64,000 nt of DNA from Phycisphaerae bacterium (GTDB lineage: Bacteria > Planctomycetota > Phycisphaerae > UBA1845 > Fen-1342), in assembly GCA_028279405.1 (NCBI GenBank), contig JANQNU010000043.1, positions 1 through 64,000 on the forward strand. Reading direction: 5' to 3'. Positions 1 to 63,811 of this stretch are shown piece after piece (positions within the stretch are counted from its first letter, which is position 1; every line of letters begins with the position of its first letter). The notes beneath the pieces are model-generated. The model was not told the DNA's origin, did no database searches, and saw only the letters and a list, made by a program, of their open reading frames with translations. The position numbers and the translations under genes are program-made.

Positions 1-1575
<1,575 letters not shown>

Positions 1576-61493: not shown

Positions 61494-62681
61494 CTAGGCC
61501 ACGCCGGCCGATGCCGCGTTCTTGAGCACCGCGGCCTTGTCGGTCTTCTCCCAGGTGAACGTATTGTAGGTCTCGCCCCCGGCCTTGACCGTACCCGGAA
61601 CACGGCCGAAATGGCCGTGCGTGGCAGTGGGTCGATAGATCGGACGGCGCAGCTCGAGATGATCGATGATTCCGCGCGGCGTCAGCGGGAAATGCTCGCG
61701 GACGAGCGCCGCGATCGTGTCCTCGTCGACGCGGCCAGTCCCCTGCGTGTCGATCCAGACACTGGTCGGCTCGGCAACGCCGATCGCGTACGAGAGCTGA
61801 ACCTCGCAGATGTCCGCCAGTTCGGCCGCAACTACGTTTTTCGCGATGTAACGGGCCATATAGGCCGCCGAACGGTCGACCTTCGTCGGATCCTTGCCCG
61901 AGAAGGCGCCGCCGCCATGCCGGCCACGACCGCCGTAGGTATCCACGATGATCTTCCGCCCCGTCAGACCGACGTCGCCGTGCGGACCGCCGATCTCGAA
62001 CCGGCCGGTCGGATTCACGTGTACGGTGATCTGATTGTTCCACCACTCACCCAGCACCGGCTTCAGGACGTGCTCGATGATTTCGTTCCGCAACTTGTCC
62101 TGCGCGTCGTTCCAGGTCTTGTCGTGCTGCGTCGAGAGCACCAGCGTGTTCACCGCGACCGGCTTCTGCTCCTCGTACTCCACCGTGACCTGCGACTTGG
62201 CATCCGGCCGCAACCCCTTGATCCCGCCGGCGCGACGTACTTCGGCATGCTTCTCGACCAGCCGATGGGCCAGCTGGATCGGCAGCGGCATCAGCGCGTC
62301 GGTCTCGCGACAGGCGAAACCGAACATCATCCCCTGGTCGCCGGCCCCTTCCTTGTCGACGCCCAACGCAATGTCAGCGGACTGCCGCTTGATTGACGTC
62401 AATACCGCACAGGACTCGTAGTCAAACGCCATATCGCCGGAGGTGTAGCCGATCTCGCGGATCGCCTCGCGGACCACGTCCGGAATCTCGACATACGCTT
62501 CGGTAGTCACCTCGCCGGCGACCACCACCATGCCGGTCGAGACCATCGTCTCGCAAGCGACCCGCGAATTCGGGTCCTGCGCCAGCATTGCATCCAAAAC
62601 GGCGTCCGACACCTGATCGGAGACCTTGTCCGGATGCCCCATGCTGACCGATTCCGACGTGAATTGATATCTGCTAGACAA
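61494..62681 (-). CDS. metK: S-adenosylmethionine synthase
   Basis: 395 aa, usual length. Motifs [58 protein letters not shown] and [14 protein letters not shown] are diagnostic. It makes SAM from Met and ATP. No SAM riboswitch was recognised in the 107 bp between it and the divergent selenoprotein gene. Confidence 0.97.
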
Positions 62682-62788
62682 CGCTTTCTCTCCGGCTCTC
62701 TGGGGATTCTACGGGTCCTGGTCAATTCCAATCCCGTAAAGTATAGTCCGATCATCGCACACCGACAATCCTCGAAGGAGCAGCCGCC

Positions 62789-63133
62789 ATGGCCCGCAAT
62801 ATCGACTGGTACTATCACCGCAACGGGTGAACCTCCTGCAAGAAATCGCAGGGGTTCCTTGCGAAAGCAGCGTTGGAGGTCACCGAACAGCAGTCGGCGT
62901 CGGCCAAGCTTGGCCGCGATGAAGCGCTGGCGCTCGCCCGGGCGGCAAGCCGGGTGGTCGTCGCCAAGGGCCGCAAGATCGTCGAATTCGACATGCGCTC
63001 GGAACCGAGCGATGAGGACCTGCTCGCCGCGCTCCTCGGACCCACCGGCAATCTGCGCGCCCCCGCCATTCGCCAGGGAAAGACACTGATCGTCGGCTTC
63101 AACGAAGATCTCTACGAACAACACCTCGGCTAG
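62789..63133 (+). CDS. ArsC/Spx-like selenoprotein (in-frame UGA = Sec14)
   Basis: 114 aa, ATG 8 nt after AAGGAG. Reading stops at an in-frame TGA (62828-62830) after 13 codons, but the same frame continues to 63133 with homology-like sequence. The site reads G-Sec14-T-S-Cys17-K, i.e. a UxxC thioredoxin-fold redox motif as in ArsC and Spx (CxxC). Downstream comes ALEVTEQQSASAKLGRDEALALARAA, the usual helical part, then GKTLIVGFNEDLYEQHL. A hairpin consistent with a bacterial SECIS begins at the UGA. Such 'ArsC family (seleno)proteins' are known in planctomycetes. Predicted as a redox protein; substrate unknown. Confidence 0.85.
62830..62856 (+). promoter_or_regulatory. Bacterial SECIS-like stem-loop
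   Basis: Starting at the A of the UGA, AACC-(bulged U)-CCTGC pairs with GCAGG-GGTT, a 9-bp stem with an 8-nt loop AAGAAATC. A bulged U and a G in the loop are features of bacterial SECIS elements. It lies somewhat closer to the UGA than the textbook case. Confidence 0.65.
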
Positions 63134-63145
63134 CGTCCCCACGCG

Positions 63146-63811
63146 TCACTGGAGCCGGTAACGGATCGATCGCTTCGCGGTCCGCTCGAACGCGTATTGA
63201 TCCGCGAACGCCTCGGCACTGCGACGGTTGGCGGCGGTCCATTTCCGATCGTACCAGTCGAGATTGTGGCCGATCTCGTGGTACAAGAGATATTCGACGT
63301 AGAAGTCCTTCAACGACGCCAACGACCACGCGAGGTACCAGCCGTCGGCATGTTGCCGCAGGACGGGTGCATACTTCGCGTACGGTCGCAGGACACGCTC
63401 GGCCGGCCGCCGTGGTCCGAGATAGAGTCGCAAGTCCTTCGGCCACGGATAGAGGACGATCGCGCGAACTCCCGAGCCGCATATGAACTCCGCAAACGGC
63501 AAAATGCCGTCCGCATAGTCAGTCTTCCGGAAACGCCGTAGCCAAACGTGCGTTACCGTTTTCCAGTGCTTCTTCGGCAGATGACGCAGTTCCTTCTGGA
63601 TCTCGGTGCACGTCAGCGGGAAGAAGAAGTCCCGGGACGGATTATCGACCATGAAGATCGGCAGGTCGTCGTGCTGCGTCGGCGGCCTCAGTGAGTGCGC
63701 GCGCCAACGAATGCGATCCGGCACCTTCCGCGAGGTCCGCCCGCCGTAGACGTCGCCGAACGTGCGGCTCTTCTTCCATGCGGTCCGTTTTCGGTCCACC
63801 GTCGCCCCCAT
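63146..63811 (-). CDS. Zinc-metallopeptidase-like protein
   Basis: 221 aa. HEIGH (178-182) followed by EAFAD (200-204) is a zinc-binding pattern (HExxH...ExxxD) seen in several metallopeptidase clans. No signal peptide is evident, so it is likely cytoplasmic. The rest is unassigned. Convergent with the selenoprotein gene. Confidence 0.65.
   Translation of the reverse strand: MGATVDRKRTAWKKSRTFGDVYGGRTSRKVPDRIRWRAHSLRPPTQHDDLPIFMVDNPSRDFFFPLTCTEIQKELRHLPKKHWKTVTHVWLRRFRKTDYADGILPFAEFICGSGVRAIVLYPWPKDLRLYLGPRRPAERVLRPYAKYAPVLRQHADGWYLAWSLASLKDFYVEYLLYHEIGHNLDWYDRKWTAANRRSAEAFADQYAFERTAKRSIRYRLQ

Follow-up and report, generated by a model that had tools for sequence, protein, structure and literature searches.

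The window, meaning the whole 64,000-nucleotide stretch of DNA that was analysed, carries a complete 16S rRNA gene at its very start (1-1575, minus strand) and a predicted selenoprotein gene near its other end. The features of this gene are listed in Table 1. It stands alone, with metK (61494-62681) upstream on the opposite strand. Downstream lies an ORF on the minus strand (63146-63811) which encodes a YHEIGH zincin-like motif and for which no Pfam domain was matched at E 0.001. A terminator-like site was sought 3' of the selenoprotein gene and none was found.

Table 1. Predicted features of the selenoprotein gene
Feature	Coordinates	Strand	Basis
Predicted selenoprotein gene of 114 codons, counting TGA as Sec	62789..63133	+	NF041106 ArsC family (seleno)protein
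Predicted Sec-encoding TGA, codon 14, opening the U-T-S-C active site	62828..62830	+	TGA in 91/93 distinct homologues
TGC codon of Cys17, presumably the resolving residue of UxxC	62837..62839	+	invariant in 49 aligned sequences
Shine-Dalgarno-like GAAGGAG, purine-rich, 5' of the ATG	62774..62780	+	sequence
Predicted bSECIS upper stem-loop UCGCAGGG-GUU-CCUUGCGA, apical loop starting with G, 23 nt past the UGA	62846..62864	+	covariation, register control, codon bias, -10.4 kcal/mol

The reading frame runs from the ATG at 62789 to an in-frame TGA at 62828-62830, continues through 100 open codons, and ends at a TAG (63131-63133). With the TGA read as Sec it is translated as MARNIDWYYHRNGUTSCKKSQGFLAK...VGFNEDLYEQHLG, 114 residues in length. 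A first-pass annotation had described a 13-codon start running into an in-frame TGA, followed by a Sec-T-S-Cys site; the TGA is present at codon 14, and the site is U14-T-S-C17 as described. The same annotation expected standard gene callers to start this gene late, which is borne out by the ORF list made with translation table 11: the only entry at the locus is a frame of 86 aa from the TTG at 62873, which begins past the active site and so loses it.

The translated protein was matched by the NF041106 profile with 126.6 bits (cut-off 85, E 5e-37) over residues 5-109, the whole profile being covered. The UxxC or CxxC motif that defines this family near the N terminus is found as U14-T-S-C17. 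Matches to the Spx and Spx/MgsR profiles were weak and far under their cut-offs, and Pfam ArsC gave 17.5 bits, under its cut-off of 24. The family was present in 22 of 61 related genomes, the source genome counted in, with TGA at codon 14 in the source genome and 20 relatives and TGC in one. A scan of GTDB species genomes gave 467 relatives, and the best 80 of these were used; 79 had TGA and one had TGT at the Sec codon. These 80 were mainly from Planctomycetota (Phycisphaerae, Gemmatales, Pirellulaceae) and also spanned Acidobacteriota, Myxococcota, Deltaproteobacteria and others. Pooling of both sets gave 93 distinct genes (91 TGA, 1 TGC, 1 TGT), a Sec to Cys ratio of 91:2 that describes the related genomes and the nearest relatives (best 80 of 467) rather than the wider family. 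Besides its intact copy (L022), one related genome has a truncated one (L039, G052:C5) that is almost identical to the C-terminal part of L022 and has the appearance of either a partly duplicated gene or a fragment from assembly.

Alignment with Cys homologues, proposed in the first-pass annotation, placed the UGA in line with a Cys codon in the two homologues that have TGC or TGT. In 49 aligned sequences the Sec14 column contained Sec or Cys only and the Cys17 column was invariant. W7 and R11, which precede the TGA, were also invariant, as were G61, G84, P85, G87-N88-L89-R90-A91-P92, G97, G103 and F104. These invariant residues outline the site and, possibly, a surface for the substrate. Since the same codon is TGA in 91 of 93 homologues and TGC or TGT in the other two, and since the residues before the TGA are conserved together with the rest of the protein, the TGA is not a product of chance or of a sequencing slip.

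The stem-loop downstream of the UGA has the properties published for bSECIS elements (loop GUU, 8 bp, 23 nt, -10.4 kcal/mol). Two sequence solutions for this hairpin were found among the Sec genes: class Q, with 67 genes including the type at 62789-63133, and class SKF, with 24 genes that are mostly from Myxococcota/Deltaproteobacteria. In a register scan, 91% of class Q cells were paired at one register and no more than 56% at others, while class SKF, at a register one base longer, was 97% paired, with no more than 45% at other registers. By formal count 97.4% of class Q cells were paired, compared with 34-66% when the register was slid, and 27 cells were changed on both sides compared with 6.7 in shuffles; 0 of 500 shuffles were as high in cells paired or in covariation score. 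Three class Q pairs had double changes, G-C being replaced by U-A in 10 genes and by A-U in 15. The formal count for class SKF was 96.9% paired, again with 3 pairs showing double changes. RNAalifold recovered the same helix unprompted.

Codon usage within the hairpin was compared with that elsewhere in the same genes. Glycine was encoded by GGG in 46/46 cases (19% elsewhere; Fisher p 3e-30) and leucine by CTT in 64/67 (11% elsewhere; Fisher p 5e-49). Serine was TCG in 25/25 cases and alanine GCG in 47/54, against 27% and 37% elsewhere, respectively. In genes with Glu GAG instead of Gly GGG, the Phe codon that follows changed from TTC to TTT (19/21), so that the base pair was retained. Judged from these sequences, codon choice is overridden by the hairpin and the bias serves the RNA.

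Using our own simple hairpin scoring, the published bSECIS energy threshold of -7.5 kcal/mol was reached by 71 of the 91 Sec genes and by 37 of 273 control stretches of the same genes; under this scoring 20 of the 91 Sec members miss it. A qualifying hairpin was sought in both Cys genes and was retained in neither (L018, 1501-1815; L099, 362-709). Loss of the machinery does not account for the Cys state of L018, whose genome (G055) has SelA and a strong tRNA-Sec match. When the first 45 nt of the mRNA from 62789-63133 were folded without constraint, the structure of minimum energy (-19.0 kcal/mol) had a competing pairing close to the UGA; the UGA-proximal arm of this pairing varies among relatives. 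Covariation supports the hairpin.

The first-pass annotation also predicted that selA, selB, selC (tRNA-Sec) and selD would be found elsewhere in the genome, and all four are present. SelA was matched on C72 (554.9 bits) and SelB on C61 (278.6 bits in a 722-aa frame, plus a second C-terminal piece). The tRNA-Sec was found on C23 with 66.5 bits, and ARAGORN named it tRNA-SeC with anticodon TCA. SelD was found on C92 (372.7 bits) with one internal TGA. The SelD DNA (L041 1481-2427, G000:C92) reads ...TCG TGC GCG GGT TGA GCG GGC AAA TTG... at an N-terminal CAG-U-AGK motif, and SelD of the source genome itself appears to be a selenoprotein. Among the 61 relatives, a SelA match was obtained in 21 of the 22 gene-bearing genomes; the exception is G024, whose assembly is fragmented and in which tRNA-Sec was strongly matched. 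Since most of the genomes without the gene also have SelA, this co-occurrence discriminates little.

The TGA could instead be a true stop or a sequencing error, the locus then being a pseudogene or encoding a shorter protein from TTG 62873, where a mechanical ORF does exist. This reading was rejected as extremely improbable, however, because independent assemblies show the same TGA in 91 distinct genes, the residues upstream of it and the hairpin downstream are conserved, and the genome has the full Sec machinery. The pattern of TGA and Cys among homologues, the compensated hairpin, its codon bias and the set of SelA, SelB, tRNA-Sec and SelD together indicate that the gene almost certainly encodes an NF041106 selenoprotein whose TGA is decoded as Sec. 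Absence of selABCD and an erroneous TGA, the two findings named beforehand as contrary to a selenoprotein, were examined and neither held. SelB with Sec-tRNA(UCA) would recognise the mRNA hairpin, and Sec would be inserted at the UGA, where RF2 would otherwise terminate translation. At 61334-61259 (minus strand) the gene for RF2, prfB (PCRF and RF-1 domains), seemingly has an upstream ATG start and an in-frame TGA in CTT-TGA-C, which we take to be the classic site of programmed +1 frameshifting in this gene. With the Sec UGA, which lies no more than 1.6 kb away, there would be two recoded UGAs here.

An AlphaFold2 model was obtained from the selenoprotein aligned with 48 locus sequences (pLDDT 93.9, pTM 0.85). 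It has a thioredoxin fold closest to YffB/Spx, in agreement with the ArsC/Spx-like thioredoxin-fold group to which the predicted selenoprotein had been assigned at first pass. The closest solved folds were YffB (1rw1; Z 8.7, 2.6 A, 85 residues) and Spx (Z 8.5), followed by glutaredoxins, NrdH and ArsC (E. coli ArsC 1i9d, Z 6.5); Foldseek TM-scores were modest, at about 0.5. Helix 1 of the model begins with the Sec14-x-x-Cys17 site, and P92, within N-L-R-A-P, is the proline conserved in this fold.

The family name, the sub-threshold Pfam ArsC match and the fold family shared with E. coli ArsC, a glutaredoxin-dependent enzyme, would fit an arsenate reductase in which Sec replaces the catalytic Cys12, and the position of the catalytic residue is indeed the same (Sec or Cys in all). 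The Arg60/Arg94/Arg107 triad of ArsC has been called essential (PMC3169414), however, and it is not kept here. All 49 sequences have Ala at the Arg94 position, beside the conserved proline; the Arg107 position is mixed, and the Arg60 position is mostly Lys in a part where the alignment is somewhat doubtful. Clustering of the first and second neighbours of the 80 homologues gave no cluster larger than 7 members and no functional partner; with no conserved neighbours of any kind there is no arsenic-resistance context. Arsenate reductase activity was rejected on the triad and is considered quite improbable.

By both sequence and fold Spx ranks with the closest solved structures, and the B. subtilis protein shares with the selenoprotein the CxxC position (Sec here standing for the first Cys) and the C-terminal VGFNED/VGYNED motif, as expected if the selenoprotein were a redox-switched regulator of RNA polymerase with Sec in the switch. 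In contrast, the selenoprotein family lacks the inserted TEDG segment of Spx, and with it G52, which is required for docking to the RNA polymerase alpha-CTD (PMC2801614); the position of Spx R92 is Ala. Such a regulator is thus not supported, and its standing was lowered to unlikely. A Spx-type Sec redox switch outside the Gram-positives, in which Sec14-Cys17 would sense oxidants and act on a partner other than alpha-CTD, is less likely still; if it were true, selenium status would gate a stress response. YffB (P. aeruginosa 1rw1, B. melitensis 2kok) has the same fold, likewise without the ArsC arginine triad, and has been proposed to be a glutathione-dependent thiol reductase (PMC3169414). 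Brucella YffB is reported to have a single cysteine in GX3CX3K, whereas the selenoprotein has UxxC.

Since the catalytic Arg94 of ArsC and the Spx docking segment are both absent, we infer from fold and motif that the protein is rather likely to be a free-standing selenol/thiol oxidoreductase with a Sec14-Cys17 site. The Sec14 selenolate would attack an oxidised substrate (a disulfide, peroxide or similar), Cys17 would resolve the adduct as a selenenylsulfide, and this would be reduced by thioredoxin or a low-molecular-weight thiol.

NF041106 (ArsC_rel_Se_1) appears in a 2026 review as the UxxC "arsenate reductase-like protein" family (PMC13188914). The review cites earlier work as its reference 61, by list position the Global Ocean Sampling paper (PMC2398784), the table of which has an "Arsenate reductase 2" (cd03032, UxxC, 42 sequences) that is probably the same family. 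The present gene shares with the catalogued family a profile score above cut-off, the UxxC motif, the Sec TGA and a downstream bSECIS, and nothing essential differs. The family was previously catalogued and the decoding mechanism is well known; the gene adds a new member to this family, from a planctomycete genome of Phycisphaerae kin. Plain gene callers truncate or miss its UGA recoding site. In the comparative set obtained here, about 90 Sec genes show two solutions for the hairpin, which is missing from the two Cys genes. Within this sample nearly every member of the family has Sec rather than Cys (91 to 2), a predominance that suggests an important role of Sec in the chemistry of the family.
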